A stretch of 64,000 bases of DNA, from the NCBI GenBank assembly GCA_008330645.1, contig VLTN01000017.1, positions 372,001 to 436,000 on the forward strand, in the 5' to 3' direction. Shown here piece after piece: positions 150-39,416 of the stretch; within the stretch, counting starts at the first letter, position 1, and each line of letters starts with the position of its first letter. The translations under genes were made by a program, and so were the position numbers. Source of the stretch: Cafeteria roenbergensis (lineage: Eukaryota; Sar; Bigyra; Bicosoecida; Cafeteriaceae). The notes beneath the pieces are model-generated. The model was given only the letters and a program-made list of their open reading frames with translations. It did not search any database and was not told the DNA's origin.

Positions 150-3100
150 TCACTCGGCCGGACAGCCGTCGGGGCCTCCCCCCAGCTCAACCTCGCCGCA
201 CGCCGGCTGGTCGAACCACGCGGAGTAGCCGAAGTCGTCCCCGTAGAACTGGCGCGCCCATGGGGCGGTGTCCATGTGCGACCACGCCCAGCCGTGCACC
301 CTCGCCCAGGAGGCGCGCCCCGGCGGTGCCGAGGCCATGTCCGACTCGAACTCGGGGGGCTCCGGCGGCGGGCCCCCGTCCAGCATGAGAGGGCCGGGAC
401 TGGGGGGCACAGGCGACGGCTCCGCGCCCGAGGGGCTGGCATCCGGCGCGGGCGGGTCAGTGCCGGCGAGTGCCGTGACGCCGCTTGACTTTGCGTCGCT
501 GGGAGCGGCGGTCCCGTTTTTCAGGGCCCCGTCTATCGCCGCGGGCATGCCCGGCTGAGTGGACACGAAGCCAATGTGCTGCGCGAGGTGCGGCACTGCG
601 ATGAGGCGGAGCCCTCCCGGGTGGTGAGCTTCCGCCGCGAACGGCAGGCTGAAATCGGAGAAGTCCGCCTCCGATGCCCAGAACGTGCGGAGTTCGAAGC
701 TCAGCTGACGAGCGGACTGCCGGGGAAAGAGGGTGGCGACGATGCAGCAGCCGCTCGCGATTGGCTGCACGCCAGGCTGCTGCCACGGGTAGCGGGTGAC
801 CGCCGCCCTGCCGGCGCCCATCAGGGCGGCAGTGAGGACTGCGCCGGCCAGGACGCAGGCGGACACTGCGGCGACCGGGCGGTCAGGTTGCCGTGGACAG
901 CGCACCGCGCAGACTTGGCCGGGCGACAGGGGGGGCGGGAGGTCGACGCCCTCGGAGGGCGAGCTGGCCGCGCCCAGCCTTGACAGCGCCCCAGCTGAGG
1001 CCGCCGCCCCTGCTGCTGAACTCGAGTCCGCCCTCGCGACCTGATCCGCTCTGCCGAGGGGCAGCTCTGCCAGCGAGTGAGGCAGAGCCCTTTCTCCGGC
1101 CCTGGTCGCGCGGCGGGTTGGCGAGCTGTGGTCCGACTGGCTGGCCTGCAGCGACGGCAGCGGCGAAACCTCTGGCCCGCTCTGGGGGGGCATTGCCCGG
1201 CGCGTGATGCTGGCGCCTGCAAACGCGGCTTCAGCGTCGGCAGCCTCGCCTTGCGGGGGGGAGCCCTCCGAGCCCACGGAGTCGCTGTCGGCATGCGAGC
1301 CTCGGCGCTGTTTCGTCGCGCAGCAGCCGCAGCTGCAGCGCAGCTCCAGGCAGCCTGCCCGGAGGACGGTGTGGACCTTGGAGAGCTCAACAGTGGCTGC
1401 GCGCCGGCTAGGCGCCCTGCTGCCAGCCCAGCGCTGGGGGGTGGGCTGCCCTGCACAGCGGGCTTCCAGTGTGCAGGCGCTGTTGGGGACTCGTCCCTGG
1501 GTCGACGATGGCGAGCGCAACGCAGGCGCGAGGTCAGAAGCGTCGCTACGGTGGGAAGCCGCTGAGAGGCTGCCCGGCGAGGAGCAGGACGCCCCGCCAC
1601 GCTCTCCCTGCCGCGGGCCGTGCCTTGTGCCGCTGCCGCCGTCGAGGCCCCCGCAACATCCCGCGCAGCAGCAACACCACAGACCGCAGAACCAACAGCG
1701 GCTGTCGACCTCGCTGCAGCCCCCGCGCCCACCCCCGCCTCCGCCCCCGCTCCCGCTGCTCATGCGGGCAGCTCTGCCAGTGGGACAGGGGCCAGCCGGG
1801 CCGCACTCCACCAGCCCGAGCGCCCAGCAGGAGCAGAGCAGCACAGCCACCCCGAACGCTGTCGGCCCTGCCACCATCCCCGGGATGTCACCCTCCCCCC
1901 ACTGCTCCAGGAAGTCTGGATAAAAGAGCTTCACCCACGTCACCCGGCGCTGCAGGGCCGACGACGCGTCGGCTTCGAAGGCGTCTGAGCGACGCGCCGC
2001 CGCCGCCGAAGCAGCAGCGGCAGGGTCCAGCCGCAGCACGTCGTCGTCCTCCGACCCTTCCAGCGGCGTGAAAACCGCGCCCTCGGGCACCCCGGCGGCA
2101 TCCTCCTCGCCGCTCACGGCCGATGCCGATGCCGACGCTGTTCCGGCCGCCACCCGGGCGGCCAGGCTCGGTCGCTCCCGCAGCGGGGCCGCCATCGCCG
2201 GACCCTCGTGAAAGCGGAACTTCCACGGCTCGCTGTCCGCTCCAGGGAGCGAGAGGCGGGCCTCTGCGGGCCCGTTCTCCGTGCCGGGCGGGTGAGCGGC
2301 CTCGTCATCGGCCGCCAGCTCCGCCGCCCGCGGGACCACTGAGAGGAGCAGCTTGTTCAGCCAGCCGCGGGTCATGACCGCGTCGTCCTCCAGGACAACG
2401 GCCAGCTCTGCCCCCACGGCATTGCTGCAGACGTCGAGCGCCAGCGCGTAGTCCAGCGTGGCCTTGGCGTGACGGCTGTGAAGGCGGGGCCACTGGCGCC
2501 ACGGCGAGCGACGCGAGAGCCGGGTGCCGCGTGCGTTGAGGTCTCGCCGGAGGGCGAACGCCGCGAAGGGCGTGCATGCGGCGGGCGGGGAAGGGAGGGG
2601 CCCCAGTGGGGCCCCTGGGCCGAGCGGCGGCAGGGACGTCAGCTGGCCCCATCGCAGCAAGAGCGCGGTGGCGTCGTCCACGGGCCCGTCGCTGCGCGGC
2701 CCTCCCGACCGGAGCCCGCCCCCCGCGGGGCCTGCCCCTGCGGGGATTCCTCTGCCCGTGGGATGGCTCCGCCGTTGCTCCGGCTCCGACGCCCAAAGCG
2801 CTGAACCAGTCCCGCCCCTGGCCGCCGAGGCCGCCAGCTGCGACTCCACCCCGGCCCTGAATGAGGAGTTCCCGGCGATGGCCTCTGCAGCCGCCTGCCA
2901 CTCGGCGAGGGCCGCCGAGCACCGCCAGAACTCGGCCTGTCGGCGGTCGAGCGCGGCGGCGGCGAGAGGGTCGGACAGCGCCCCCCCAGCCTTGACCACC
3001 GTGACGACGTCCGAGAGAGCCGCAGCCTCGGGGTGCGGCCGCGAGTCCACGTCGAGCACGATCCAGTGCGCGAGCGGCGTTGCGGAGGCAGAGGCCGGGG

Positions 3101-3635
3101 CCGCGTCCCAGGCGCGGGACGAGCAAATCTGCGGGGGTGGCGAGGCCGCGCCCTTGGCCCAGTAGCTATCGGGGTCAGAGGGGAGGCGGGAAAAGTGCAT
3201 GCCCGTCCCGACCGACTGAGTAAGGATCATGCTGGGGTCCTTTCGGCCGACAGAGAGCGAAACTACGCACACCTTTGGCGGCTGCCTGGACTTGTAGTAG
3301 GCCCGCAGGTCCGCCACCGTCACCGGCCCGCCATCGCTGCCCACGCTGACGCCAACTGGCTCGGCCGCGCAAGGCACGCCGTCCGGGGCCGACTCCGCGG
3401 TCTCGGCTCGCATCGACGAGAGGAACCAGCCGGCCAGAGCCCGTCTGACGTACCGGGCCCGCCACAGCCGCTCGACTGGCGCGGAGTCGTGGAACACAGA
3501 GAACCGCAACTCGTGCCGGCTTGCCCACAGCCAGGCCGCCACCGCAAGCCCCGCAAGCGCTGCAAGGCCGCACACCGCGGCCGTGCGGGGCATGACGCAA
3601 CGCAGCACTTTGGGGTGGGCCTTTGCCCGGCCCAT
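150..3635 (-). CDS. PGAP4-like GPI-glycan glycosyltransferase with a split transmembrane pair
   Basis: A single long exon of about 1,161 residues; the start chosen is the ATG just before the first hydrophobic segment. In order it shows an N-terminal membrane segment (about residues 18-37), a GT-A-like region with an acidic VLEDDA motif (E416-D418), a WVKLFYP motif near residue 570, a membrane segment at about 590-612, a Ser/Gly/Cys-rich linker of about 300 residues, and a second membrane segment at about 915-940 followed by a GCCIVATLFP stretch. PGAP4/TMEM246, the Golgi GalNAc transferase acting on GPI anchors, has this order: one N-terminal anchor and a tandem membrane pair inserted in the GT-A fold, followed by a similar CC-x-AxLFP motif. 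PGAP4 is only about 400 residues, so the extra length is low-complexity insertion. The assignment rests on architecture and short motifs. Some insert sequence could still be unrecognised intron. Confidence 0.62.
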   Translation of the reverse strand: MGRAKAHPKVLRCVMPRTAAVCGLAALAGLAVAAWLWASRHELRFSVFHDSAPVERLWRARYVRRALAGWFLSSMRAETAESAPDGVPCAAEPVGVSVGSDGGPVTVADLRAYYKSRQPPKVCVVSLSVGRKDPSMILTQSVGTGMHFSRLPSDPDSYWAKGAASPPPQICSSRAWDAAPASASATPLAHWIVLDVDSRPHPEAAALSDVVTVVKAGGALSDPLAAAALDRRQAEFWRCSAALAEWQAAAEAIAGNSSFRAGVESQLAASAARGGTGSALWASEPEQRRSHPTGRGIPAGAGPAGGGLRSGGPRSDGPVDDATALLLRWGQLTSLPPLGPGAPLGPLPSPPAACTPFAAFALRRDLNARGTRLSRRSPWRQWPRLHSRHAKATLDYALALDVCSNAVGAELAVVLEDDAVMTRGWLNKLLLSVVPRAAELAADDEAAHPPGTENGPAEARLSLPGADSEPWKFRFHEGPAMAAPLRERPSLAARVAAGTASASASAVSGEEDAAGVPEGAVFTPLEGSEDDDVLRLDPAAAASAAAARRSDAFEADASSALQRRVTWVKLFYPDFLEQWGEGDIPGMVAGPTAFGVAVLLCSCWALGLVECGPAGPCPTGRAARMSSGSGGGGGGGRGGCSEVDSRCWFCGLWCCCCAGCCGGLDGGSGTRHGPRQGERGGASCSSPGSLSAASHRSDASDLAPALRSPSSTQGRVPNSACTLEARCAGQPTPQRWAGSRAPSRRAATVELSKVHTVLRAGCLELRCSCGCCATKQRRGSHADSDSVGSEGSPPQGEAADAEAAFAGASITRRAMPPQSGPEVSPLPSLQASQSDHSSPTRRATRAGERALPHSLAELPLGRADQVARADSSSAAGAAASAGALSRLGAASSPSEGVDLPPPLSPGQVCAVRCPRQPDRPVAAVSACVLAGAVLTAALMGAGRAAVTRYPWQQPGVQPIASGCCIVATLFPRQSARQLSFELRTFWASEADFSDFSLPFAAEAHHPGGLRLIAVPHLAQHIGFVSTQPGMPAAIDGALKNGTAAPSDAKSSGVTALAGTDPPAPDASPSGAEPSPVPPSPGPLMLDGGPPPEPPEFESDMASAPPGRASWARVHGWAWSHMDTAPWARQFYGDDFGYSAWFDQPACGEVELGGGPDGCPAE

Positions 3636-4436
3636 GGCCCGCAAAGCACTGCCCGCCACGCTGCAGGCAGTCGCTGGCTGCTCAAGGCACACCAATCTTG
3701 GTCCGGACCCCCCTGACTGCGCCGTGCTGCTGCCTCGGCCTGCCTTTCGGCTCCGCGTGGCCCTGCAGAGCCGGGGCGACGGGTCTTGACTGGTCGGCTG
3801 TCGTCTCCAGCCAGTCGCGGCTCTGCGATTGCCCGAGGGCAACCTTTGGGCGGCCTGCGCTCCACCGACTCCGGAGGAGTGTGCTTGCCTCCCTCATCGG
3901 TACGCTCGCAGCGAGGCGCGTTGGCGCGGCAGCTCAGGGCCACGGTGCCCCAAAGCCCTTCCTTGCGCCCGGCCCGCGAAACCTGGCGCCCCAGGCCCAG
4001 AGGGACAGTTTTGGGGAGGCGCAAGCGATATGGCGCAGCCACGCTTCTGCGCTCTGTGTCGGTAGCGCGCCGCGCGCGCGAGTGGACGCAGCCGCAGCCA
4101 CCACGGGCTTGCCGTGCTTGGTTGGACGCTCGAACCCGCTACTTTGAGAGGACTCTCGCGTTGCTGGGTGCGCTTGCTGGCGCTCGCCCACGGTGCATCA
4201 CAAAGGTTCATCCACGAACAAAAGGTTGCTTTGCCGCGCCACACACGGGTAAAGCGCTCATCGGGCAGCCGAAGTGCGGCAGCGGCCAACGTGTGGCCGC
4301 ACCGTTTGGACCTCGTTGCCGTCACACGAGCGCAAGAGGCAGCGACAGGAGTGCGCCAGTCCACGTAGAACGTTTTTTTCGGTTGAACGAGCGACTATGA
4401 CGGTCCTGGTGAGCTCCTTGCAAAGCTGAAGTGTCG
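3636..4436. other. Intergenic: 3' UTR of the SelU-like gene and promoter side of the PGAP4-like gene
   Basis: No convincing coding region on either strand. Because both neighbours are on the minus strand, this stretch must hold the 3' UTR of the selenoprotein gene and the promoter of the PGAP4-like gene. If the upstream TGA codons are selenocysteine, a SECIS hairpin should lie here on the minus strand. I looked for ATGA/GTGA...AA...GA cores and saw several ATGA tetramers but no stem of the expected length. Confidence 0.5.
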
Positions 4437-6250
4437 CTACTCGGCAGAGCGGAATCCGAAAAGCAGGCGACTCGCCGCCAGGGCGAGGAGTGTGCCAGCA
4501 AATGCCCCGGCAGCCGCCCAAGCAGCCAGCGCGGGCCCCATTGCGGCTACGCCTCCCCGCGGCCCGACGGATGGCTCCGCCTCAGCGGTGGCGGCCGGCT
4601 GGCGAGCTGGGTGAGCTGCTTGGCAGGCGCTGCTGGAGCTCGCCTCCCTGGCCGTGTCGACAACCGTCGGCGGCTCCGCGGGGGCGGGCGCCGGGGTGGG
4701 GTGGTCGGCGAGAGCTGCTGGGGCCTCGGGGAGCGACAGCACCCAGTCGGCGACCTCGCCGGCGGGAGCTGCCCCCGCGTCGCCCGGCGGCGTTGCGTCC
4801 TTGGCCACCGCGGCCAGAAGCTCGTCCACGGAGGGCCGGTCTGTGTTGTCCTTGGAGTAGTACGCCAGCAGCATGCGGCCGTCGCTGCCTACCACCATGT
4901 CGCCCGCGAGCTGGTTCACGTCCTGCCCGTGGGAGGACTCCAGCTCCCTCCCCGCGGCCTTCTGCTCCGCGTAGAAGCCGAGGGAGGCGCTCGACCACAC
5001 CCCCGCCACAGACCGACGGAACCTGAAGGACTCTGAGTACACGGTGCCGGCCGCCCCACCGGGGGCTGGGTCTCGCGCGTGAGCGAACCCCGCGCCCACT
5101 TGTCGAGACCACTTCTCCGCGAGCCCCGCCGACTGCATGAACGACACAACCACGACGCGGGCGCGCTTGGCGGCGAACTCGTCTCTCCGCCGCCAAACGT
5201 CCGCGACGTGGTCGCGTCACGGCAGTCAGCCAAAGTGCCGAAGAAACACGAGCACTGCCGGGCCGGCACCGCCCCCCTCCCGCTGCGTGAGGGCTGCGTG
5301 GCCACGGACAACGCCCTCCCTCGGCGGGGTGCGCGGGTCCCCCCCATCGGGCCCGAGCCTGGGTCTCGAGACTCTCAGGGCAAAGTCCGGACACTCGTCG
5401 CCGGCGCGGAGGCGTTTCCGGCGATGGCGCCCCGAGCCAGCTGCCCCCGCTCCGGCGGCGGCCTCGGCGGGGCTTGCCGTGCCGGGGGCCGCTGCGCCGC
5501 TTCCGTCGTCGCCTGCGGTGCAGTCCGGGTTCAGCTCCTGCTCCATCGCGTCGAGCTGGGCCTGCCAGCGACCCTCCGCCGATGCCAGAGCCCGGCCGGC
5601 ATGGCCGGAATCCATGCCAAGAGCCCCCTGGATGCCGGAGGCGCGCTTGAGTGCTGTTTTCATGGCCGCTATTGACGCAAACGCGTGCTGCCGCAGCACC
5701 GCCTCCCCCTGGCCGATTAGCGAGCCCAGGCAGCGGGCGCGCGCTTCAGGGCTTGCACCGCTGCGCCGGGCCTCCTCCGCGCGCGCAAGCGTCGCTGCGA
5801 TGGCCTGCTCGTACTCGGCCGCCGCCGCCAACGCGCGCTCGGCCTCCCCGGTGTCTGGCGCGTCAGCTGACGATCCAGGCCTGCTGGACAGCGCAAGGGC
5901 GACCTCGACGGTCGCGACCTCCCCCCACTCTGCACGAAACAAATGGCCGAAGTGCGTCGGGGAGCGGGCACGGGGTTGAGAGCGGTTGCAAGCTGGGTCC
6001 GTGGCAGCGCGCCCGGGGTGTGCAGCAATTGCTCACCGACTTCTCCCAGCGCGCCACACCCGTGCACCAGCTCGCCAGTCTCCTGGTTGGCGAGCACAAC
6101 CCGTCGCCGATTCCTGTCGGTCAGCCCCAGCCCGCAGAGGGACAGGACCTCGTCCACAAGGTCAGCTCCTGTCGCAGAAACGCACAGCTGAACCGACGCC
6201 TGATCGCCATCCGGCAGCAAGAAGCAAATCTCTCTCTCCCGGTCCGACAT
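4437..6250 (-). CDS. SelU/PRXL2-family thioredoxin-fold selenoprotein with a UxxU centre and C-terminal anchor
   Basis: Two exons: 6250-6037 and 5929-4437. The intron 5930-6036 is GTGAGC...GTGCAG, phase 1. The product is 568 residues if two in-frame TGA codons (residues 306 and 309) are read through. The sequence before them reads VLVFLRHFG, then TGA-Leu-Pro-TGA, then RDHVADVWRRRDEF. In PRXL2/AhpC-TSA-type proteins this place is HFG-C-x-x-C-R. Downstream, VVVVSFMQSAG, an LAGDMVV strand and DRPSVDELL also fit the family. SelU is the selenocysteine form of this family. N-terminal residues 1-90 look like a small ubiquitin-like or RA-like domain; residues 95-220 are helical and Ala-rich; a hydrophobic segment at about 540-561 could anchor the C terminus. 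Other genes here stop at TGA, so codon reassignment is unlikely. Two chance stops exactly on both redox Cys positions, with the frame open on both sides, are hard to explain otherwise. The SECIS was not identified. Confidence 0.82.
5217..5228 (-). other. Tandem UGA (selenocysteine) codons, U-L-P-U redox motif
   Basis: On the minus strand the codons read GGC TGA CTG CCG TGA CGC. The TGAs occupy 5228-5226 and 5219-5217, and the same frame is open for hundreds of codons before and after. They replace both cysteines of the family CxxC motif. Confidence 0.8.
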
Positions 6251-20247: not shown

Positions 20248-23135
20248 CTACCTGTGAGCGTCCACCGTGCCACCAGCGCCCGGGGCTGCAAAGGGAACTG
20301 CGCCGCCGAGGCCCTGCCCGGCGCTGACAAACGCGCCGCTCGCGGTGCCGAAGAGCGCAGGCTGGACGAAGCCGGGCGCGGCAGAGGCCTGGGGCGGCCA
20401 TGCGCCCGGCATGAGCGGCACTGCCGGCCGGAAGGGCAGGTGTGGCATGTGGTGCTGCTGCTGCATCTGAAGCTGCTGCTGCTGATGCTGATGCTGATGC
20501 TGCTGGAGGAGGAGGAAGGGAGCGGAGCTGGCCACAGCGCCCAGGCCCAGAGCCGCCTGGTGGGCCGGATATGCAGACCCAGATACCGGCGCCGCTGCGC
20601 TGGGGAGCGCGCCCGGGACCGAGTACGCGGGGCCGAGAGAGCCTGGCGAGGCGCTGTGCGCCGCGCCAAAGGCGCTCATAGCGGCAGAGTCAGCGGGCCT
20701 GGGCGCCGACGGGTCGAACAGATGGCTTGGCACGGTGGGTTCTGTCGAGAGGGTCGGCAGTGACGCCACCGAGGCGATCGCGCGCTGGCCCTGCGGCGTC
20801 TGCATGAGGGCCTTGGTACGGGCAAGGACAGCCTCCAGCGTGGGGTCGAGCGGGGCCGCGTGGGCGCCGCCGAGGGCGATGGCGGGGCGCGGGGGGCCAG
20901 CGCCCGACGCGGTGATGAGCGCTGAGGCCGAGTCAGAGGAGGCTGGCAGGGCCGAGGCAGGTCCCTGGTGCGGCTTGCGCGAAGAAAGCACGGGCGCCGG
21001 GCCAAGCCCGGGGGAAGACCCCGCAGCAGACGCTGCGGCGTCGGGGGGCAAGCCTCCCGCCCCCCCGCCGCCGCCGCCGCCGCTCCAGGAGCCGGAGAGA
21101 GCGGGGGGCTGCGCTGCGGCGGCAGAGCCGGCGGCGTCGGAGCCGGCGGCGCGATGCCGAGACGCTGACGACCGGCGCGGTGGCGGCAGCGCCGGAGCGT
21201 CGGATGCCGCCGCTGCGAGCAGCTTGGACGCCGACGACGCGGCCTCCAGCGCCGCCGCGGGGTCGCCGGCTCCTGGGCCGCCCGTGGGGGAGGGCGCCAC
21301 GGGCACGAGCGGCGCGGCCGACGCCGGCGGGGCGGGTCTTCCGGCCCGCGCGACGCCGCTGGCCTCACCCTTGCCGATGCAACGGTCCACGTGGTAGAGT
21401 GCCGCCTCCAGGGAGGACATGGCCGCCGGCCACGTGGTCCGGCGGGCCACCTCCCTGGCGCGGCGTGCGAAAGTCGCCTGCAGAGCCGGCCGCGTCACCA
21501 TGGCGTACACGCACCGGGCCAGGGCGTCGACGTCGAACGGCTCTGCCGAGAGACAGTTGTAGCGGTGGGAGGCGAACATGTCCACGCCGTGGCAGCGCGA
21601 GGTGACCACGGGCACGCCTGACGCCATCGCCTCCAGGACAGGCATGCCCCACGCCTCGTACGCGCTGCAGAAGAGGATGCAGTCGAAACCGCTGCGGTAG
21701 AGCGCCGGAATGTCCTCCTGCGGGGGGTTCACCACCAGCGAGATGGGCAGGCCCGGGGGCACGGCGCCGGGGCGAACCTGGCACATCCACGTCACGTGGA
21801 TGCCCGAGGGAGAGCATACTCGGATATCGGGGTGCTTAGAGGAGGAGGAGGAGGACGTGGAGGCCGGGTTTGGGGCTGCTGTGTCTGCGGCGGCGGCGGA
21901 AGTGGCGGCGGTGCCGGCGCCAGCTGCGGAGCCATGGGTTGGGGTCGATGCTGAGGCCTTGGGGTGAGAGCCAGTGGAGGGGGAGGTCGGGGCGGTGCCG
22001 CCGGACGCTGGCAGAGCCGGCGACTTGGAGGTGCCGGCGCCGCTCTTTGCCGGGGGCAGCAGCGCCGCTGCCTCGGCCGCCGCCGCAGACGCCGCGCTCT
22101 CGGGCGTCGCGTATCCCTTCCGCACCGCCTCGTCGAGGAGCCAGCGGTGCACCCGGGCGAGGACGGCGAGCGCGGTGTCGAAGTTCTTGAGTCTGAGGCC
22201 AGGGTTCCCGACGATGAGGACGCGCCTTGGGCCGGTGGGGTCCACGGGAAAGCGGCCCGCGATGCGCATCGGGTGGTGAGGGGGCTCGGGGCCTGGGTGG
22301 AAGAGGGAGGAGTCGATTGCGTTGGGCACCACCGGCGCAACCCTTGCGAAATGGTGCGCCAGGATGTCGCGGACGATGTTTGACACGGACAGGAGGGAGA
22401 CAGGGAGGTGCATGGACGCGTGGAACACGCGGTCCCAGTCGGCGTGGGAGGTGGGGTCGCCGAACACGTGCTCGTGGCCCTGGTCCCAGTACACGATGGC
22501 GCCCGGGCATGCCGTTGCGTCGCCCAGCTCCACCAGCTGCGTGAAGTAGCCCAGCATGACAACGTCCACGTCGCCCAGCACAGCCGTGATGTTCTCGTGG
22601 GGCAGGATGAGCCGCTCGGCGTCCGGGGTGAGCATCTCGCGGGCCCAGGGGGGCAAAACGGGCGAGCCGATGGGGCCGCGGAACGCAGCCATCACCCAGT
22701 GCCCGCGGCGCTGCAAGTGAACCAGGTGCTTGATCAGCATCTTCATGCCTCCGGTCACGTTGTGGTGAGGGAGGTAGTAGCACACGCGCAGCGGCCGCGC
22801 TCGGACGGCCGCAGGGAGGCCGAGGCTTTGGTCTGACCACATCCAGTCAATCTGTGCAAATGCGGGCGGGCGGCGCGCAGGGCAAGCACGACGGCAATCG
22901 GTCCCGGACAGCGCCAGTGGAACGCCGGCCCGGCCAGCGCTCGGCGGGCGCGGCGCTCGGGGCCCACGGCGCTGCTCGGCCGCGCAAGTCACCGGAAGGC
23001 ACGACGCGACCGTGGCTGCCCAAGTCGCCGCCTCCTTGCGCCGGCACTTACCTGGTTGCCGCACCAAGGCCTGGTGCCGCAGCCGCAGCCGGGGTAGTGG
23101 AAAGTCGACCGCACCTGCGCCGGGATGACAGCCAT
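20248..23135 (-). CDS. GT4-family (GT-B fold) glycosyltransferase with Q/P-rich tail
   Basis: Two exons, 23135-23052 and 22851-20248, separated by a GTAAGT...TTGCACAG intron of 200 bp, phase 0; about 895 residues. Exon 2 begins IDWMWSDQ. The N-terminal Rossmann domain has LRVCYYLPHHNVTGG and the central part has VLIVGNPGLRLKNFD. The C-terminal domain has FCSAYEAWGMPVLEAMASGVPVV (about residues 421-443) with the family EX7E pair, then an NCLSAEPFDVDALA loop. Ala/Ser/Pro insertions split the two lobes. The last 300 residues are low-complexity, including a His/Gln-rich run. No signal peptide or membrane anchor is visible, so a cytosolic enzyme is likely. The sugar donor is unknown. The short Cys-rich first exon is inferred from the consensus donor. 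Confidence 0.72.
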
Positions 23136-23874
23136 GGCTGCAACGGCCGGCCTGGGGGCGGGCCTTCGGCGCGGCGGCCAGGCAGCAGAGCGACTGCCGC
23201 TTGGACGTGGTCGTTCCGACCCTGGATGCCCGGACACCGAGCACGCTGGTGCCGGCGCCGCGGATGGAACCGGAACGGGCTGGGCACGCAGCGGACGCGG
23301 GGGCGCGGCCTGGCTCGCGCTTCCCTCGCGGAGAAGCGCCGAGCGAGTGGCTGCCCGGCGATTGGCCAGGTGGCCTCTGCAGCGGAGCGAGATGTGACGC
23401 TGCTCTGCATCGCGCGCTGCCGAGCCCCTGGCCCGCGGCAAGGCCCCAATCGCGGCACCGGGTTGCCGCTTTTCGAGCCGGTGCGCAGCCGGGCCGTCCG
23501 CCGGCAGGTGGCAGCTGCCAGCCGCTGTGGGCCGGCTGCTTGAGCTCGAGTTTCGGCTTGTGACGACTTGAACACACTCTGGACGCCACGAGCGCGCACG
23601 CGCCCCGCACCCAAACCGGTGGGGTAGTCAGCCCGGCTGGACCTCTTCCATCGCCATTCAAGTTCATGTCGCTGGCTAGGGGGGGGGTGCTGTGTGGCCG
23701 CTGCGCGAGGCCCACGAGCGGGAGGGGGGCGGCGAGCCGTTCGAGACTTGGCCGGCGCACACACAGCCTGCGGCAGCGTGCCGGGCTCACAACGCGCGCG
23801 TCCCCTCGCCTAGTCGGCAGTTGCTGTGGAGGCTGACAGTCGGTAGCGGTGGCAAAGACTCGCACGCGGTGCGC
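23136..23874. other. Intergenic; promoter of GT4 gene and 3' flank of hexosaminidase gene
   Basis: No supported coding region in 739 bp. Both flanking genes are on the minus strand. A further upstream exon of the GT4 gene cannot be excluded. Confidence 0.4.
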
Positions 23875-25738
23875 TCAGGCGAAGGGCACGAACGCTGCCT
23901 CGTCGCACCAGCCGGGGCCGGTGGGCGCGGAGCCGACGCCCATGGCCTGGAGGCGGCACGCGTGCGCGGTCAAGCGGGGCAGCGCCACGTCCGTGTTGTT
24001 GACCGCGGTGGGCACCCAGAGGCGCTCTGCGATTGCTGCTGCGCGCGGCCACAGCTGCGCGTCCACCGCCGGCGCGTTGGCAAACTCGCCAAAGAGGACC
24101 GCCTCGCCGCCCAGCAGCTTGCCCTTGGCGCCGGGCGCCACTGCGGCCTCGATGTTGGTCTGGTACACCTGCTCCCACGAGCTGTACGCGCAACCGGTGT
24201 TGAAGCCGCAGTTGAGGTACCAGCCGGAGTCCTCGGCCGACGCGACCACGTCGAAGCCAGCGGCTGTGATGGGGGCGACGTCGTCGAGCGACCGCCACAC
24301 CTGGTACACCGAGTTGGGTGAGACCTTCACGCCGTTGTCAAACAGATCCTGCCAGTGAACCGGGCGGCGTCTCCCGGCGCCGAGAGCGCGAGCGACGGCA
24401 TCGCGGCCGTCACCGGCGGGCAGAGCCTCCACGATGGCGTCGGCTTGCGTCACAAAGAACTGGAGCACCTGGGTGGTCGACGTCCACCCGTTCTCCTTCA
24501 TGAAGCGTTGCACAGAGGCGTCCTCCGACCAGCACCCGAGCACCACCTCGTCGCCCTGCGGAAGGGTCAGCGGAAGGGTCAGCGGAAGGGTCAGCGGAAG
24601 GGTCAGCGGAAGCGTCAGCGGAAGGGTCAGCGGAAGGGTCAGCGGAAGGGCAGGTGAGAGAAGACGCGCGAAACTCAGGGGGGGGGGGGGAGGGGGCATT
24701 TGCGAGTGCACGTGCGCGCCGCGGGAGGGGGGCGCAGGGCCGTGGCAGGGCGAGTCGCCGCGGCAGGCTCACGCCGATGTGGACGAGCTCGCCGGGGAAG
24801 GCGGCGGCCAGGGCGCCGAGGACGTCCTGGACGAGGTCCGCCGTGAACTGCACGGCAGGGTTGAGGGGGATGTTGTTGATGTTGTGGGCGTAGCCGGGGC
24901 AGTTGGCGGTGGAGTTGGGGTACCCGAGGCCGAAGCTGTAGGCGTGGCCGGGCATGTCAACCTCGGGGATGATTGTGACCCCGAAATCGCCAGCGTACGA
25001 GGTGAGGTCGGCGAGGTCCTTGGGGCTGTAGCGCGCGGAAGCGGCGTACGCGCCCTTTTCGGCAAGCAGGGGCAGCGAGGGCACCTCCAGCGGGAAGCTC
25101 TGGGCGTCGGTGAGGTGCAAGTGCAGCGCGTTCATGCCCGAAGCTGCCGCGGCGCGCACCGTGCGCTGGATGGTGTCCAGGGGCAGGAAGTGGCGGGCAG
25201 TGTCCAGCATGATGCCGCGGTGGCCGTAGAACGGAACGTCCACGACGCGCAGGGGCAGGCCGTCGATGGAGGCGCCCGAGGCGCTCGGCGCAAGGAGCTG
25301 AGACAGGGTGCGCAGCGCGTGCAGGGCTCCCGCGGTGCTGTTTGCCGCCACCTGCGCCTCCGCCTCGCTGACATCCAGCGTGTATGCCTCGATTGTAGAT
25401 CCGGGCCGGCGCGGCGGCCACTCAGACGTGGACGCGACCGAGATGCGCACGGTCGACAGCCCCGCTGCGGCCGATTCGGCTGCCGAGCAAGGCTTGCCGA
25501 AGAGCGCCGTCTGCAGCCGCGCGACGGCCGCATTCACCGTCGCCAGGCCTGGCCCTGCGGGAGCATCCACCTTGAAAGCAAGGTCGCTGCAGCTCGCCGG
25601 CAGGCGCGCGGAGCCCGACCCAAATGTGCAAGTCGCTGGGAGAGGCCAGAGCTGCGCAGTCGGGGGCCAGCAGTTGCCAGCGTAGGCCGCCGAAGCCGCC
25701 CCGGCCATGGCCAGAACAGCGGCGAGTACGAGGCGCAT
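23875..25738 (-). CDS. GH20 beta-N-acetylhexosaminidase, secreted/lysosomal
   Basis: Two exons, 25738-24773 and 24555-23875, phase 0, 548 residues. An N-terminal signal peptide (MRLVLAAVLAMAGAASA) is followed by the GH20 N-domain and the barrel: RGIMLDTARHFLPLD, MNALHLHLTDAQSFPLE, VTIIPEVDMPGHAYSF. The catalytic HIGGDEV is cut by the intron, HIG in exon 1 and GDEV in exon 2, giving the Asp-Glu pair as D324-E325. Later WQDLFDNGV, LNCGF and GGEAVLFGEF complete the active-site wall. The enzyme removes terminal GlcNAc/GalNAc from glycans. The gene is divergent from the carboxypeptidase gene, another lysosomal-type hydrolase. Confidence 0.94.
24559..24654 (-). repeat. 12-bp minisatellite next to a 3' splice site
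   Basis: Eight head-to-tail copies of cggaagggtcag (one with a substitution, the last one degenerate) fill the 3' end of the 217-bp hexosaminidase intron, starting almost at the acceptor. On the coding strand the unit is pyrimidine-rich and may act as the polypyrimidine tract. Confidence 0.9.
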
Positions 25739-26465
25739 GGCTGTGGCAGCGGGGCTGGTCGGGGCGCGTGGAACTCGCGGGCCGAGCGCAACCCGGAGTG
25801 CCAGCGACACCTCGGCAAACGCGCAGCTCGGGCTCTGGTTGAAGTTGGCGCACCGCTCCCTCTGGCCTCCCTCTGCCTGCACGCCTCGGCCCCGCATCGC
25901 TGCGACGCGGCCGGCCCTGTTGCGCCCGCGCAGTTTGCGCGATGTTGCTCCTTGACTGCTTCACTGCGTGCGCTCAGCCAGGGGCCCGTGTCCGCTCCAC
26001 CCCTGCCACGGGCGCGAAACTGCGACTTCACCACTCGACTGCTTGCGCTGCCCCCCTCCACTCCTCCCGAGCGGCACCACTGCGCAGCCTGCATACGCAA
26101 GGGGCGACCCGGGGATCTCTGCGGCTGGTCACGCTCCTTCTGGGGCGACTCCCAGTGTTCTCACTGCAGAGTTCTCGCAATTCCGCCGGTCCCCCCTGGC
26201 GTTTGCGTCGTTGCTTTGGGCAGGGTGACATGCCACGCGCTGCATTGCCAGCCCGTCCTCTCAATGCGGGTTGTGTAGGCTGCAGCGCAAAGCCTTTGAC
26301 TCGCTTCGGTGCGAGCGATCAACCGCAAAGCGAGAGGGCAGTCTGATGGCACCGCACTGCCAGGCGGTCAGCTGCACAACTTGCTTTGGCTCAGCTGAGG
26401 GTCTGCTCTGCGCACGTCGGACATGGGTCACCCTGCACTCTTGCGCCCTCGTTTGGGTGGGATCG
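25739..26465. promoter_or_regulatory. Divergent intergenic region hexosaminidase / carboxypeptidase
   Basis: 727 bp between two divergent lysosomal-type hydrolase genes, so both promoters lie here. It is less GC-rich than the coding flanks. No specific element was recognised. Confidence 0.4.
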
Positions 26466-29894: not shown

Positions 29895-32800
29895 TCAGTG
29901 CCCGCTCGGGCGGGCAACAACCTCGGCGAAGTCACCCCCCGGAGCGACGACGGCCACCCGGGGGGAGGTCTTCCAAGCACTGCGCAGCTGCTGCGCGAGC
30001 GAAACCGCGGCAGCTGCGGAGGCCCCGTGGAGGCCGAGGGCGCTCGCCACGGCCTCGGCCTGCTTGGCGGAGGCGGTCCGGGTCGTCTCGGGGCCGGCCG
30101 CCGCCGCGGAGGCAGCAGCAATGCCCGCTCTGGCCGCGAGCGCTCCCCCCCCAGGCTGCACCACCACCACGACGTCGACACCTGCATCGGCCAGCTGCGA
30201 CTGCATCCTGCCTGCACCGGGCCCCGCTCGCTGCCCGGGGCACGCGACGGCGCAAGCGGCGGCAAGCGCCGAGTCGACGGTCGGCGAGCCGCCGCCAGCC
30301 GGCGCGGCACCGCTGGTGCTGTCCTGGCCTGTGGTTCCCGCGGCGTGGGCAGCGGTGCTTGTGGCGGCAGCGCCTGCAGGCAACGCCCGGGCCGTGCCAC
30401 CGGCAGCGCCAGCGCCAGCGCCGTGCCCAGACGCGCCGCTCGCTGCGGCATTGGTGCCAAGCCCGCCGCCGACACCGATGATCCGAACACGCGGTATGCG
30501 CGGCGCGGCGGCTGCGGCGGCAGCGCTCAGCGCAGATTCACCGCGGGTCACCGCCTCCGCGGCAGCGCCGGCAGCGGCAGCCGTCGCGACCACCCCGTCC
30601 ATCACCACCGCCGCGTCAGACGCGGGCGCAGCGGGTGGCACGGCTGGAATGGCGCGGCGCGCCGTTGCCAGCGTCGCGGAATCAGCAGCCACGCTGTGGC
30701 TGCGCCGGCGCTGTGCCGCCGCCACGTCAGCCGCGACCCTCGAGAGCGACCGTGCGGCGGCCAGCTGGGCCGCCCAGCCCGGACATACGGCTAGCAGCAG
30801 CCTTGCAGAGCCAGCCGCCTCGATGGCCGCCTGCTGCACGGCAGCCGCCTCGGAGGCCGGACCCGCGCCCGGCAGGACGCAGGCTGCGGCCACCGCCCCA
30901 ACGCCGATTCCCGCCGCCAGCGACAGCGCGACCACGGTGGGCACGTCGCCAACAGAGACCTCCTTCTCCGTGCGCCGCCCCGACCCCAGGGACACCACCT
31001 TGACCCTTCCCTTCTGGGAGAGGGCTCTGTGCTGGGCAACGACCACGACGCGGGCCCCGCGGGCCCGGCCGGCGGCCAGGGCATCCTCGTAGCCGCCCTC
31101 CCAGGGCACGATGGTGCCGTGCGCCGTGCTGATGCCGCAGGCACGAATGGCGGAGGCCAGGCCGAGCACGGCAGAGGCTGTGCTGGCCACAACGCTTGGG
31201 CTGAGAAGGGCGCTGGCGGCGGCTGCCTTGCCCTGCCCGCCCCCTGCTGAGTGCTTGGCGCGAGGCAGCACCCCCACGACTGCCACCTGGACGTCGCCGA
31301 GGGCCGCCCTGAGGCCGGCGTCGCCTGCCAAGTCGCTGCCGCGGCCGGCCGTCCTGTTCCGCCTTGCGTCGGCGCCCGGCCCAGCGTGCGCGGCTGCGGC
31401 AGCGGTCCCCATGGCGTCTAGGAGGCGCAGGCAGCCGGCCCGGCAGAGGCTCTCGAGCCTTGGCTGGATTAGCGCCACGGCCACCACAGCAGGCAGCGAG
31501 CGCGCGCCGCTGCCAGCGAGCCTGAATCGCAGGACCGTGGCGTCCATGCGCCCGCCCACGGCCAGGTCACGCGCCGAGGCGGAGGCTGCGGCGCCTAGCC
31601 CAAGCGCCACGAGGAACGAGCCGGAAGAGCCGGTGGCGGCGGTTTCACCGCCGCGAGAGGCCCGGACGAGCCCGCCGAAGAGACTTGAGTCAGCCTCCGT
31701 CGCCGCTTCGGCCTCCGCATCGGCGGCGTCAACGTCAGCGCTCGAGATGACCTCAACGGCCGCCGCCCCGCCACTGAGACCGGCGGCCACGCAGGCAGCA
31801 GACCGGGCGGCGGCGCCCGTGCCCCCGCCGGCGCCTAGCCCGCCCAGGGCCATCTGCCCGCCAGCGCCGGCGCCTCCCGCGCCCGCCCCAGCGATGCCCC
31901 CGGCGCCATGCCCGACGCCTCCGCCGCCCATGCCGGCGACGCCTCCAGCGCCGCCAGCCCCGCCCGTTGCGCCCGCAGCCGCGGACCCAGCGGCCGTGCC
32001 TGCCCCTGCGGTGCCGGCGGCGTCGCCGCCCTCCACTGCCACCAGCGCCGCTGCGAGCTCCTTCGACGGGGGCACCGCGCGCTCCGCGGCAAGTCTCGCG
32101 GCCGCTTGCTGCTTCCTCCTCCTCCTGCGGCCCGCGGTGGCGTCGGACACTGCGCCGAGCGTCTCCATTCCGACGGCGAACACGAAGCCGGCGTTGAACC
32201 GGCGGTGGCGGTCGCGCCTAGTCCAATCCAGACACAGCATGCGGCAGAGCCACGCGCCCGAGGTCAGGCTTCCGCGGACGGCTCTGCCAGACTGGGCAGG
32301 GTCAAGGCCAGGCGCGGCAGCCAGTCGTGCCGCTGACTCGGCAGCGGCCGCGCCAACGCTCCAGAGGCACGGCAGAGGCGGGAGCCTGAGAGCGCTGGCG
32401 GCCTGGGCACCGGCCGAGGCGGCTGAACCAGCGGAGGCGGCTGAAGCGGCGGCCGAGGATGCACCGCCGGCAGCCGCACAGGCCGCCGCGGCCGCGTTGG
32501 CTGCTGCCGCGACGAGGGCCGTGGCGGCGCCTGGGGCCGCCGCGGCAGCCGCGCGCTCCTGCGCCGAGAGGGACCCAGCGCCGCCGTGGGGGGGCACCTG
32601 GCCGCCGGACGCGGACCGCCCGCCCGAGGCAAGGCCGTCCGGCGCAGCCCAAGCCCCCCGAGAGGCCTGCAGGGCCGGGGACCGAGCGTGGCTCCCATGC
32701 CCCCTGTCGTGCCTGCCGTGCCGACGGCCGCCCCTGCCCTTGTCGTGGCCGCGCCGGCCACCGCCGTCGGCCCCACCGCCGCCACCGCCGCCACCGCCGC

Positions 32801-35800
32801 CGCCGCCAGCTCCGCCTGCACCGCCAGCTCCGCCTGCACCGCCGCTGCCGCCGCCAGCGGCTGACGCCTCAGCGCTGCCTGCGCCAGCCCCGCCTGCGCC
32901 TGGACCGAGCCCGCCGCCGTGGCCGTCAGCGTGGTGCGACGGGCCCAGGGAGAGAGAGGGTGGCCCTCGGCCGCCGTCAGCCCCGTCACCGCCGGAGGCG
33001 CCAGCGCCCAGACCCCCGCCAGACCCACCACCACTCATGCCCGACAGAGCGCGGAGACTCGGCGACGGCTTGGCAAGCGCGGAGGAGCCGCTGGCACCGC
33101 CGCCAGCGGCCGCAGCCGCCGCAGCTGTGGACAGCTCGGCCGCTTCCGTGGGTGGCAGCAGCGCGGCGGCCGCGGCGCTGCTCGCAGTGCCCCAGGCCGA
33201 AAATGCGGTCGCAGCTCCGTGGCCGAGGGCCGCCGCTTGGCTGGCATTTGCCCGAAGGATGAGGCCTGTGTCAGCCGAAACCGCCCGGACAAGCGCCCCG
33301 ATGGTGGCCCGCAGCTCGACCAGCGCCTGGGCTGCGAGGCAGAGGCCGGCGTGGCGCCAGTGGGGAGTGCTGCGAGACGGCAGAGCCTGGGCGGGGGAGG
33401 GCAGAGAGCCGGCGCCCCTGCCCGGTGCTGTTGCCGCTGGCGTTGACGCGGCCGGCGCGCCGGCGCCAGAGCTGGCTGTCTTAGCCTTGCCTGAAGACGG
33501 CTGGCTCTGCTGCTGCTGCTGCTGCTGCTGCTGGGCGGCGAGGAGCGCAGCGATGTGCGCTCCCAGCTTTGTGAGGACTGCCTCTGCAACTGCGAGCGCG
33601 CGGGCGGGCTCCGGCGGCATGCAGAGCAAGGAGTACAGGAGATTGAGCGACTCAGCGTCTCTCAGTTGGCAGCTCGCCTGGATCCAGCGGCGCACGGACT
33701 GCCACGAGGAGAAGGGTGCGGGGAGGCGGCCGGGGGCCAGCCAGTTGTCGGCCAGAATGGCGTCAGCCGTGGCGGGCACAGCGTGCCAGGGCCCGGCGCA
33801 CTCGCGGGCCAGCTCCTCAGCGGCGTCCGCGGGGGACAGGTCCGGCTGGGATCCGATGTGCGGGGCTCTTGCTAGGGCCGCTGCGGCCTTTGCTCTCAGC
33901 GCCATGGCGCAAGCCGACGCCAGCTGCTGGAAGCGGTCCCTGCTAGCGAGGGGGAGGCCGCAGGCCGCCATGAGGCCGTACAGGAGCTTTTCGTGGCCGA
34001 CCACGACGCGGACGGCGGCGGCAGGGGCGCCGTGGCCGGCGGAGGCGGCGTGGTGGTGCACCCCTGCGCCCCCGACCATGGGGCCGACCACTGCGGCTGT
34101 GGCCAGGAGGGCCTCCGCCTCGAGCGCGGCAGCTGACTGCGCCCGGTCGACGTCCCACTGGCGAATGGGAGCGCCGGCAAAGAGAAGCCGGGGCGGCGCC
34201 CCGGGCGCCGGCGGGGCAGTGGGCGGGGTGGCCGCGTCGTCAGGCGACGCAGGGGCAGCCATGGGGTCCACCAGGAAGAGCGCTGTCTCCGGAATGGAGC
34301 GGGGCGGGCCGCCGGCGCGGGCTGGCCTGAACACTGTGGCTGAGGCGAAGCATCGCATGCTGGTGACGCCGCGGCGGCCGATGAGGCGGGCAGCGCCCAC
34401 GGGCAGCGAGGAGGGCAGCTCCAGCACCGAGCCCGCCGCGTCCATGACCGCAGCTGCGGGGCGTGCCGTGGCCTGCCGAGCCGCAGCGTCGAAGGCTGCC
34501 AGGACCGATCGCCCGTCGGCGGACTGGTCGGCCGCCGTGGCTGCAGCCGCCTGCGACGCCGCGTCTGAGGCGAGGCTTCCCGACTGCGTGGCCAGCAGCC
34601 AGCCGAGGGCTGCGTTGCTGGCTGCGTCGGCGGAAGCGGAGGTGGGGGCGGGAGCTGCCGCGGCCTGACGGCTTTGCGCATGGGGGGCGGTTGCGCCGCT
34701 GCAAGCGCCGCTGCCAGCGCCGCTGGCCCCGCGGGGGGCATGCGTTGGCTGGCCCGCGACGGCGGTTGCGGCTGCTGCGGCGTTGCCGTCCTGGGTGAGC
34801 ACGGCGGCCCACAGGGGGAGGTCGAGGTGGGCCGTGGCGAGGCCCCGGCGCCAGCGCAGCTGCAGCTCCGACGTGGGCGGAGCGCGCGGCGTGAGAATGG
34901 GCAGCTCGACGGGCTCTGCCCCCCACGCCGACCACGCGGCCGCCACCCGCTGCTCCAGGGCGCGTCGCAACAGCAGCGCCGCGCCGTCAGAGCGGCCTTC
35001 CGCCGCGCCCCCGGGAATGCCGAGCCCCGATGCCACCTTGGCCGACTGTTCCCTGTGGCCAGCGACCCCTGCAGGTCCCCGCGACAGAGACGGGTGCCGT
35101 GAGCCCTTGGCGCCGCTGCCGCCCTTGACGGGCGCCGGCCTGGCCTCGGGGCCGTCAGCGTCCTCGTCGGCGTCAGGGAGCCCCTCCCACGTGTGATCCA
35201 CCGCCTCCGACGTCGGCTGGGCGAAGAGCGACCCCACGAGGCGGGAGCGCAGCGTGCTCACGGGCCGCGTGAGCGCTCGCGTGGCCTCGACGATGAAGCC
35301 CTCCTCCATTTCCCCGCGCGCTGGCAGGAGCGGCGACGCAAGCAGGTCAGCCGCCGACGGCCTGTCCTCCGCCGCCCGGGCCGTCAGCATGCGAATGACC
35401 GCCTTGGCCTCATCGCTGGCTGCCTGCTCAAAGGCGGGGGGGAACTCCCCGTGCTTGCGGAGGTTCAGCAGGGCCGTTGCTCGCTCCATGCCGGTGCTGA
35501 AAGCGGGGTGGAACAGCTCGAAGAGGATCACGCCCAGGCTGAACAGGTCCACGGCGCTGGAGTACCGGGCGCGGGACTCGGGCGGCCGACCAGCCGCCGC
35601 GTCGTCGTCGCCCGCGACCTCCGGAGCGCGGTAGAAGAACGTGCCCACGCCGCGCGTGAAGCCGCCGTCCATGCCCTCCATTGCGCGTTCGGCAGCAGCG
35701 CTGTCGCCCTCGTCCGCGAGGCGCTGCGCGACCTCCAGGGTAACCGCCACAGCGTCCGCGGCGGAGCCCGATGCCGCGGCGGCAAGAGCCACGTCCGACG

Positions 35801-38555
35801 GCGCTGCCTTGCTCCCCGCCGCCGCTGCTGCCGAGCCGTCTCGCTGTGCCCCGTCCTGTCCCGCACGGGCAGGTCGCTCCAGCGCCTCACTCTTGCCCGT
35901 GGCGAGCCCGAAGTCAGCCAGCTTCACCGTGGCTTCCTCAGTGAGCAGGACGTTGGCCGGCTTGAGGTCCCTGTGGATGACGCCGCGGCTGTGCACGTGG
36001 GCGAGGCCCTCGAGCATCTGGCGCAGGAGGCGCCACCCTTCCGACGTGCGTTCGGCTTGCGTGAGGGGCTGCTTCCCGCCGTTGGGCGCTGGGCCGAAGC
36101 AGCACAGCGACTCGTCGATGATGTCGCGAAGCGTGCGGCCGGGGCAGAACTGCGAGTCGGGACAAGGGGCGGGGCCCAGACGGCCGGCAGCACACGCGAG
36201 GCGAGTGGCAGGGAACTGGGGGGGAGGGGGGGGTGCAGGCTTCGCAGGCGACTCAGCGGCAGCAGCAGTGGTAGGTTGCGCGCTTTGAGGAGCGGCAGGC
36301 GGGTGTCAGCACGCGCCGGCGGTGCCGCAGCGGCCTCTGCGGGTCTCACCTCCATCTGAATGTAGAGGAGGCGGGTGTCAGCTGCGCGCTTGGCGGCCTT
36401 GGCAGCCTTCTTGGCCGTGCGCTTGGCCTCTGACGATGCCCGCTGGGCGCCTCTTCCCGCGTTGGAGGACGCAGTCGGATCCTTGACTGCAAGCCCGAGG
36501 GCGCTGAGCGCGAGCGCATTGCCCGCCCCAACGAGCGTGTCGTCGTGCAGGCCTGCCGAGGAGGGCCCGCCCACCGATGACGTGCCGATGTCGAAGCCCA
36601 CTGAGCGGGAGAGATCCAGCTTCTGGCGCGCAGCCGACGCGGCTTCGGAGCCCGACTCTTGAGACGCCTCTCCCGAAGAACCGGACGAGGAGCCGGACGA
36701 GGAGCCGGACGAGGAGCCAGAAGAGGAGCCGGACGAAGGGCCAGACGAAGAAGCAGCCGAGGAGCCGTCGGATGATTCTGACCCTGTGCTGGAGCTACTG
36801 TCGCTGTCGTCGCTGTCGTCGCTGTCGTCTTCGTCCTCTTCGTCTTCGTCCTCGTCTTCGTCCTCTTCGTCTTCGTCCTCGTCCTCGTCTTCGTCCTCTT
36901 CGTCTTCGTCCTCGTCTTCGTCCTCTTCGTCTTCGTCCTCGTCCTCGTCGTCGCCTGAGGTGGTTTCGTCGCTGTCGCCGAACCCGGTGCTTCCCTCGTC
37001 CTCGTCCCCACCCCCACTTTTCAGCACACCGGCAGGGTCGCCATGCTTGGCCGCCTGCTCGAGCCAGGCCTGGAAGTACCGAACTACATGCGGGTGAACC
37101 AGCCGTGACAGGGTGGTGACCTCCCTGCGCAGCTTTCCGCTGAGCTGGGCTCCGCCCTCCGTCCGACCCCGCTTCCGAGGCAGAGGCACCACCTTGACTG
37201 CGTAGAGCTGGCTGTCCATGTGATTGCGCGCTTTGAGCACCCGACCAAAGGCCCCACGGCCCAGTCGCGCCAGGAGCACAAAGTCTGATGCGAACCGGGA
37301 ACCGTTGGCAGCGGCAGCGACCTGTTCAGGGCTGGCCGTGTCGGCGGGAGGCGCGTGCGGAGACGACTTCCCTCCCCCCCGGGCCCGAAGCAGGCGAGCC
37401 AGCGGCTGCTCCCCCGCCGCGTCACCGAGAGCAAGGTGCCTCGAGAAGGCTACGAGCGCCCCTGCACTAACAGTGGTATCGCCCGCAGTCCGCGCAGCGG
37501 CCGCCGTGCCTGCTCCGCGCACCGCCGGGTCGGGGCCCCCGTCCCCCCACCGCATTCCGCCCCTGCCCCCGCCCCCCGCCCGGCTTCTGGACTTGCTGTC
37601 CTCCAGAGCCTTGCGTGCCGCGCGCAGGGTCTCGTGGTGTTTCCGCCGGCGCCGCGCGGCGTCCTCCTCCTTGCCCGTGCGCTGCGTCTTGCGGATTTCC
37701 TCGAGCTGCCTGACGGCGTCCCTTTCGGCCTGGAGCTGGACGGCCCTGTCCGTAGCTGCCGCTGCCTGCCCCGCCTTGGTCCTAGCCTCGGCCTCGGCGG
37801 CGCGCTGCGCCTCCTCTCGCCGCCTCATTCGCTCCCACTCACTCTTGCCACCGGCCGGGCGCTGGCCCAGCCACTCGATGATCTCCTCGCACACGTTGGA
37901 CACGAGACACTGAAGGTCTGCTTCGCGGTCGGCGCTGCCGTCGGGCTCGTTCAGCGCGTCCTCGAATGTGGCCTTCGCCCGAGCTTGCGCGGCTTGCAGC
38001 AGCTCCTTGTCCGCCCCTTCGCCAAGGTTGGCAGTTGACGCCACAAAACACTCCGGTCTGCGCGGTACGGAGCCGACGAGAACATCACGGTCAGCACGGG
38101 CCTGGCGCGGAACAGCACCGGCAACGCAGTTCTCGCCGGTCAGGCAAGTCGGGTCAGTCTCGGCGCGCCGGGAGCGCACAGCAAGCCCCAGCTCACAAAT
38201 CGGATACAGGGTAACGCTTGGGGAGCGTGAACTCGACGGTGGCGCGAGGAAGCGAGTCCTCGTCGGCCTCTTCGCCTCGCGGGGCGGTCAGCGTGATCTC
38301 GAACTTGTTTAGCCCGAAGGACTGCGGGGCATCGCCACTTGGTCATGTGAGGACAAGACGCGGCACCCCTTGCATCGGTGGGTACTTGGAGCCACTCGGC
38401 CGAGGCGCCCGCGCGCGCCCGACGAGCGCACGGAGCCGCGCGCTGCATGGGGTGGGCCTCACGAACGCCAGACGCTTGAATGCCTCCCCGTACGTTCCCT
38501 CCAGCATCTCAATTTCGTCATTTTGGAACTCCGCTATCTCCCCTGGCGTGGTCAT
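29895..38555 (-). CDS. GCN2-like eIF2alpha kinase (RWD, kinase, HisRS-like region), giant form
   Basis: Four exons: 38555-38463, 38321-38197, 38057-36350 and 36149-29895. Phases agree and give about 2,726 residues. Exons 1-3 make an RWD domain ([29 protein letters not shown] after splicing). A charged coiled region follows, then the kinase N-lobe ([19 protein letters not shown]), interrupted as in eIF2alpha kinases by a long acidic/Ser insert (about 430-560). Splicing exon 3 to 4 restores [18 protein letters not shown], the hallmark that follows the insert. HRDLKPAN (H701-D703), ADFGLA and [11 protein letters not shown] complete the kinase. The C-terminal two thirds has scattered HisRS-like pieces separated by Ala/Gly inserts. 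GCN2 senses uncharged tRNA and phosphorylates eIF2alpha. The kinase type is secure; exact limits of the C-terminal region are not. Confidence 0.88.
36660..36960 (-). repeat. Acidic and Ser/Gly simple-sequence repeats in the GCN2 kinase insert
   Basis: Two coding repeats lie side by side: gacgaggagccg-like 12-bp units (SSGS on the coding strand, about 36,680-36,740) and tcttcgtcc-type units (Glu/Asp run, about 36,820-36,955). They expand the insert between the kinase lobes. Confidence 0.85.
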
Positions 38556-38945
38556 CCGGGGCCTGCGCTGCGGCGCAGCGGCCCGGGGGTGCGATTAGGC
38601 CAACCGCGTGACCCTGGATGACCCGCGCAACGCTGAATGTCAATAACTCTGCACTAACTATGGCGTTGTGTGAACGAATCTGGGCTTCGCCAGGCTGCAC
38701 GGGGTTGCATCACCCGTCGCTGGGCCGCGAGACCCCCCTGCAGTGCGGCAAGCGCCTTGCAACTGTGGCCCTTGCTGCAGCCTTTCGACACGCGGAGCTC
38801 GTGTTCAGAGTGCTGGCGGCAACGTCGTCTGCCCCGCTGAGGCTTTCGCTCCAAGCAGTCGAGCCAGCAGGGGAAGACGCAGCGGCAGTCGCGGAGTAGG
38901 ACGGGCTTGACCGGTCCGACTATGCGGCTGGGCCCCACGGCGGCG
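38556..38945. other. Intergenic upstream of the GCN2-like gene
   Basis: Promoter side of the GCN2-like gene and left flank of the triplicated ankyrin locus. No gene seen. Confidence 0.4.
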
Positions 38946-38949
38946 CACG

Positions 38950-39416
38950 GCCACAGAGCGGTGCTGAGCGGTGGCCGGCGGGACGGTGTGTGGTTTGTTC
39001 ACCCCAGCCGCTCGGCCGCTCCAATGGGTGCAGGGATGCTGCCCGGCTGCTGCGCCCGCGCCCCCACCAGACTGGGCGCCACCGAGCACACTATGGGCAC
39101 GTGCTTGGATGGCGTGGATGACGCTAGGTTGACTGCGGTCGGGGCGAGGCGGGCACAAGCGGCTGCAATCGCGCCGCAAGCAGCACTGCTGCCGGCAGCC
39201 GCGGACGGCTCCCGCCCGCTCGCCCACGAATTCAACTGCAGCATGCGTGTGTGCTGCATGGCCCAGCGGATGTGCCCCGGGTGGGGATACAGGCGTGCTT
39301 CCCGCCAGAGCGGGCATCAGTCAGCGCGGCATTCCGCGGCGGCAGAGCCCAGGGCTTGCTCCGATGCTCGGCGCTCCCGCGGCGGCGCACTCCTGACGAC
39401 CTGGGCAGTCGAGGCC
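38950..39416 (+). promoter_or_regulatory. Conserved leader/promoter of the ankyrin genes
   Basis: About 450 bp before the ankyrin start is nearly identical in units 1, 2 (43,960-44,410) and 3 (47,005-47,456). It is the likely promoter and 5' UTR. A few substitutions and no long open frame common to all copies argue against it being coding. Confidence 0.5.

Follow-up and report, generated by a model that had tools for sequence, protein, structure and literature searches.

A putative SelL-type selenoprotein gene with two in-frame TGA codons at its redox motif in Cafeteria roenbergensis

Analysis of a 64,000-nucleotide stretch of Cafeteria roenbergensis DNA (assembly GCA_008330645.1, contig VLTN01000017.1, positions 372,001 to 436,000; here, the window) pointed to a eukaryotic SelL-type selenoprotein gene on the minus strand, in which both of two in-frame TGA codons would be read as selenocysteine (Sec) with one SECIS element in the 3′ untranslated region (probability of approximately 0.88). 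The TGA codons (positions 5228 to 5226 and 5219 to 5217; TGACTGCCGTGA) occurred in the predicted context ...AVLVFLRHFG-U-L-P-U-RDHVADVWRRRDEF.... Judged by its sequence, the gene is of the SelL type and is a fresh example of a known UxxU family, not a new kind of protein, because a UxxU motif served by one SECIS element is the published form of SelL. Coordinates of the gene and its predicted features are given in Table 1.

The frame containing the UxxU pair was open, from stop to stop, for 268 codons 5′ and 259 codons 3′ of the pair and closed at a TAG codon (4439 to 4437). The GC content of the window was 71%, at which stops are rare and long frames cheap, and 18 TGA-x-x-TGA pairs were found in it, one of which (16194, plus strand) was inside a longer open frame than that of the UxxU pair. 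The open frame is therefore weak evidence by itself, and the strength of the observation, as far as sequence can tell, is the position of the TGA codons on the catalytic Cys columns of the domain. TGA was also the apparent stop of two large minus-strand open reading frames (ORFs) in the window (150 to 3842 and 29895 to 36017), so reassignment of this codon is unlikely. The preliminary description had placed both TGAs exactly on the cysteines of a CxxC motif, in a long open frame with unshifted family sequence beyond them and with TGA kept as an ordinary stop, and was borne out on each of these points. Its proposal of a double-Sec protein is supported by the exact TGA positions, by a SECIS candidate, and by bacterial relatives with a TGA at the first position.

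Table 1. Features of the putative SelL-type gene (positions in the window)
Feature	Position	Strand	Basis
Putative exon 1, 71 codons plus one base, from the first in-frame ATG (6250) after an upstream stop	6037..6250	-	By eye
Putative intron, 107 nt, phase 1, GTGAGC...TTTCGTGCAG (ends TGCAG)	5930..6036	-	By eye
Putative exon 2, TAG end	4437..5929	-	Open frame; acceptor by eye, phase fits exon 1
Predicted N-terminal helical region	5532..5849	-	Helices in model mdfe29ef75de2, block pLDDT 49-86
Putative UxxU redox motif, TGA-CTG-CCG-TGA (Sec-Leu-Pro-Sec), residues 306 and 309 of the predicted spliced protein	5217..5228	-	Sequence and aligned relatives
SelL-type thioredoxin-fold domain	4797..5282	-	NF040769, 106.7 bits; predicted model; Foldseek
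C-terminal hydrophobic helix, putative tail anchor	4461..4538	-	Hydrophobicity; helix 469-494 in model
Candidate eukaryotic SECIS element, form II: helix I GCGCUC/GAGCGC, core UGAC facing CGAU, apical AAA, long mini-stem	4254..4334	-	Fold and consensus scan

Elsewhere in the window, minus-strand ORFs at 24410 to 25897, 20248 to 23865, 29895 to 36017, and 49963 to 51708 matched the Pfam families GH20 hexosaminidase, group 1 glycosyltransferase, protein kinase, and Cons_hypoth698, respectively. The best stretch of the protein kinase match began at profile position 107, so part of that domain lies elsewhere. A further ORF had a weak match, under the cut-off, to the complex I subunit NDUFA5. The GH20, kinase, glycosyltransferase, and weak NDUFA5 matches fit a nuclear eukaryotic contig. 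The TGA-x-x-TGA pair at 16194, with 653 codons before it and 345 after, overlapped minus-strand ORFs, including the one with the weak NDUFA5 match.

Relatives were aligned over the redox site. In a 24-row alignment of 22 of the best 80 loci, a plasmid protein, and the window sequence (TGAs read as Cys), both catalytic Cys were among six invariant columns. Cys was present at both columns in all 81 loci compared (the best 80 of 355 relatives, from bacterial genomes, and the plasmid locus); of the 82 loci aligned there, the remaining one (L082) was the plasmid locus (L001) read on the other strand. Because one search pattern (VFLRHFGC) includes the first Cys, this survey favored relatives with Cys at that position. 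Searches of plasmids produced that one CxxC relative, and none were found in the viral contigs and phages searched.

Two bacterial phyla contained relatives with a TGA codon at the first position. In the phylum of a Bdellovibrionales bacterium (genome G001, locus L046), matches were found in 100 of 191 genomes and exceeded the cut-off in 11 of 191; five of these 11 over-cut-off matches had one internal TGA, and all five were UxxC (one match, G093:C75, was left out of the inspection, and the TGA of G127 [L106] was located away from the site). In the phylum of a Thermoleophilaceae bacterium (genome G004, locus L008), 38 of 296 genomes had a match, and the 44 matches listed included 30 with one TGA, 1 with two, 1 with a TAA, and 12 with none. 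All 17 of the listed matches that were inspected were UxxC. One of them, L110 (from the same genome as L118), had two more in-frame TGAs near or inside the match and may be a decaying copy. The SelL-related UxxC genes of the two phyla were L083, L085, L103, L104, L105, and L107 to L123. Comparison of 26 loci with the window domain gave 25 matches (22 UxxC and 3 CxxC), proportions that are not a frequency because the loci were chosen largely for a reported TGA. L102, a CxxC locus with its TGA away from the catalytic site, as in L106, had no row in this comparison. The homologue alignment proposed in the preliminary description thus returned Cys at both columns in 81 relatives and, for 22 of the 25 loci chosen partly for a TGA, a TGA at the first; no UxxU relative was found among those 25 loci from the two-phylum searches or the 81 loci aligned over the site. 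The first-position TGA in two phyla supports Sec in this lineage and counts against a random defect.

The SECIS candidate was found approximately 110 nt 3′ of the TAG stop and had a GUGA...AAA pattern. The predicted fold (−42.6 kcal/mol) resembled a form II eukaryotic SECIS element, with helix I, an internal loop (UGAC/CGAU), another helix, unpaired bases that include AAA, and a mini-stem. Fold z-scores were −1.9 and −2.1, and an equally good fold was obtained in 6 and 7 of 200 shuffles. A consensus scan of both window strands, which was written after the candidate had been seen and run without a positive control, returned four hits, two of them scoring at least 13.6 (candidate, 13.6). When the 500 nt past the stop were shuffled 5,000 times, 25 shuffles contained a hit, all below 13.6; shuffling one whole strand 150 times yielded 87 hits, of which 4 scored 13.6 or higher. 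Rfam identified no SECIS family at the candidate, even at E values of up to 10 on 116 bases. Nothing was matched in tRNA and PHROG searches or with Rfam at gathering scores; with relaxed Rfam thresholds, the matches were weak and all to unrelated families. The preliminary description had proposed a SECIS search on the minus strand between 3,640 and 4,436; the consensus scan placed the candidate inside that stretch, and the Rfam search did not identify one. SECIS cores of the GUGA..AA type are described from several green algae and sponges (PMC3473315).

A SECIS-like hit of equal strength was present at 38618 on the plus strand (13.8 versus 13.6 for the candidate). Inspection by eye of the three plus frames of 36,200 to 39,000 revealed no plausible coding frame, and the kinase gene is antiparallel to the hit. 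A second selenoprotein gene at this position was therefore rejected, and the hit is probably due to chance.

The window domain scored 106.7 bits (E = 1e-30) over nearly the full NCBIfam profile NF040769 (SelL_rel_redox), below the curated cut-off of 120; matches from the bacterial genomes G001 and G002 were likewise under it (104.8 and 109.9 bits). The exon 2 protein, with TGAs read as Cys, matched the same profile at 103.2 bits (E = 1.2e-29; residues 224 to 378, profile positions 22 to 172 of 173); in Pfam, at E values of up to 1, its sole match was AhpC-TSA, under the cut-off of that family. In a tree of 50 rows that included one PRXL2 row and left out L102, the window sequence paired with the UxxC locus L107 (97/86) within a 15-row clade (100/98) whose 14 other rows were 12 UxxC and 2 CxxC sequences. 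L107 (ULPC) was also the nearest sequence to the window domain (37% identity over 152 columns). For additional PRXL2 outgroups, 96 genomes were searched with PF13911; the matches, most of them short or weak, were left out of the tree. The SelL-type domain was modeled with block pLDDT values of 44 to 97, most above 64, and Foldseek placed the human prostamide/PGF synthase structure 9usa first, followed by peroxiredoxins and a ResA-type oxidoreductase.

The preliminary description had assigned the gene to SelU/PRXL2, and a UxxU form of that family is the least improbable of the alternatives, at a low probability. Pfam PF13911 (AhpC-TSA_2) was taken as the model for SelU/PRXL2 and PRXL2B as a member of the SelU family. 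The solved structure most similar by both sequence and fold was that of PRXL2B, the human prostamide/PGF synthase, which itself scored 47 bits on NF040769, and PF13911 was matched by 23 of the 24 alignment rows at E values of up to 0.1. However, the sole row without a match was the window, which scored 13.3 bits (E = 0.11) against a cut-off of 27, versus 99.1 bits for the human PRXL2B segment. On NF040769, which all 24 rows matched, the order was reversed, with 92.9 bits for the window sequence when cut back to begin where the PRXL2B segment begins. In the tree, PRXL2B was outside the window clade, grouped with two Verrucomicrobiota CxxC proteins (99/83); the placement of both the window and PRXL2B is unsure because their branches, with those of two other rows, were flagged as long. 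These scores and the separation from the one PRXL2 row led to rejection of SelU/PRXL2 membership.

Two other readings of the TGA codons were considered. A pseudogene or assembly error, with TGAs that arose as inactivating mutations or as sequencing errors, is very improbable. The gene is known here from genomic sequence, and the 18 TGA-x-x-TGA pairs in the window indicate that such pairs arise by chance; nevertheless, this reading needs two separate hits on just the two catalytic codons and none elsewhere in about 500 codons, a SECIS candidate is present downstream, and the first-site TGA recurs in bacterial kin. Hardly credible is a gene in which Sec is inserted at a single TGA and translation ends at the other, yielding mainly a truncated protein. 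UGA readthrough is generally inefficient, and the second position was Cys in the 22 bacterial UxxC loci examined, but downstream of the two TGAs the domain stayed in register as far as profile position 172 of 173. The preferred reading is a SelL-type gene with Sec at both positions, a reading in which the TGA positions, domain homology, and kinship to one-TGA bacterial relatives are evident at the sequence level and Sec insertion, splicing, SECIS function, membrane anchoring, diselenide chemistry, and substrate are predictions.

The less usual part of this SelL-type gene would be its architecture, which we infer to comprise an extra exon, N-terminal helices, the SelL domain, and a C-terminal hydrophobic helix in a spliced protein of 568 residues; it is not claimed as unpublished. 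Exon 1 was predicted to adopt a beta-beta-alpha-beta-beta order in a single-sequence model of low confidence (pLDDT 55), and this modeled fold is perhaps ubiquitin-like. Neither exon 1 nor the N-terminal helical region matched a Pfam family at E values of up to 10. The mean pLDDT of the exon 2 model was 60.8, and the C-terminal helix was the most hydrophobic stretch of the protein (mean of 1.77 over 19 residues). A membrane-tethered, multidomain SelL, in which the UxxU domain is combined with an N-terminal adaptor (possibly ubiquitin-like plus helical) and a tail anchor for diselenide chemistry at an organelle surface, is a tentative and rather doubtful extension of these predictions.

One SECIS element in the 3′ untranslated region would aid the decoding of both TGAs as Sec, and the product would be an oxidoreductase of the thioredoxin fold, with Sec-Leu-Pro-Sec as its active site. 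On the model of SelL, its Sec pair may alternate between the selenol and diselenide states as a peroxide or disulfide substrate is reduced. The C-terminal helix would probably hold the protein at a membrane, with the redox domain and the helical N-terminal region in the cytosol.

SelL was reportedly defined in a 2007 paper. The preliminary description had regarded UxxU as unusual, a view that does not hold for SelL, which is described as having two Sec two residues apart with a single SECIS element (PMC3316567) and a diselenide bond and as occurring in fish, invertebrates, and marine bacteria (PMC2397514; PMC12822975); SELENOL is also among the thioredoxin-like families listed for algae (PMC7539508). 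Compared by description, SelL and the window gene share a peroxiredoxin (Prx)-like domain and two Sec (predicted in the window gene) two residues apart, and the SECIS candidate may correspond to the single SECIS element of SelL; the window domain differs in being set in the predicted 568-residue protein with N-terminal helices and a C-terminal hydrophobic helix. The bacterial NF040769 proteins (UxxC and CxxC forms) have the domain in common with the window, but the loci examined had Sec at the first position only or not at all, in contrast to UxxU in the window. A 2026 review (PMC13188914) includes, among prokaryotic proteins, a Prx-like thiol:disulfide oxidoreductase whose motif is UxxC or UxxU and which resembles these proteins by description only. 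SelU/PRXL2 (prostamide/PGF synthase) is akin in its Prx-like fold, and the human structure has a CxxC site, but the window sequence was below the PF13911 cut-off and apart in the tree. UxxU is further described for SELENOW of Ostreococcus lucimarinus (PMC7539508) and for Prx-like 2 sequences of a distant Prx-like family in Global Ocean Sampling data (PMC2398784), which, compared by description, have this motif in common with the window. AhpC_b of Thalassiosira oceanica, described as an algal selenoprotein with an AhpC_TSA domain, a UxxC motif, and prokaryotic Cys homologues (PMC7539508), has one Sec, versus two predicted in the window gene.

SelL-type TGAs can be taken for SelU, and caution is warranted in annotating them. 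On the cellular reduction of the family, it has only been suggested that diselenide-reducing systems may exist in aquatic organisms (PMC2397514); the gene reported here adds to this family a putative eukaryotic UxxU protein, together with its genomic surroundings and a SECIS candidate. Since the bacterial kin examined were UxxC, the second Sec lends itself to study as one step in the evolution of the family.
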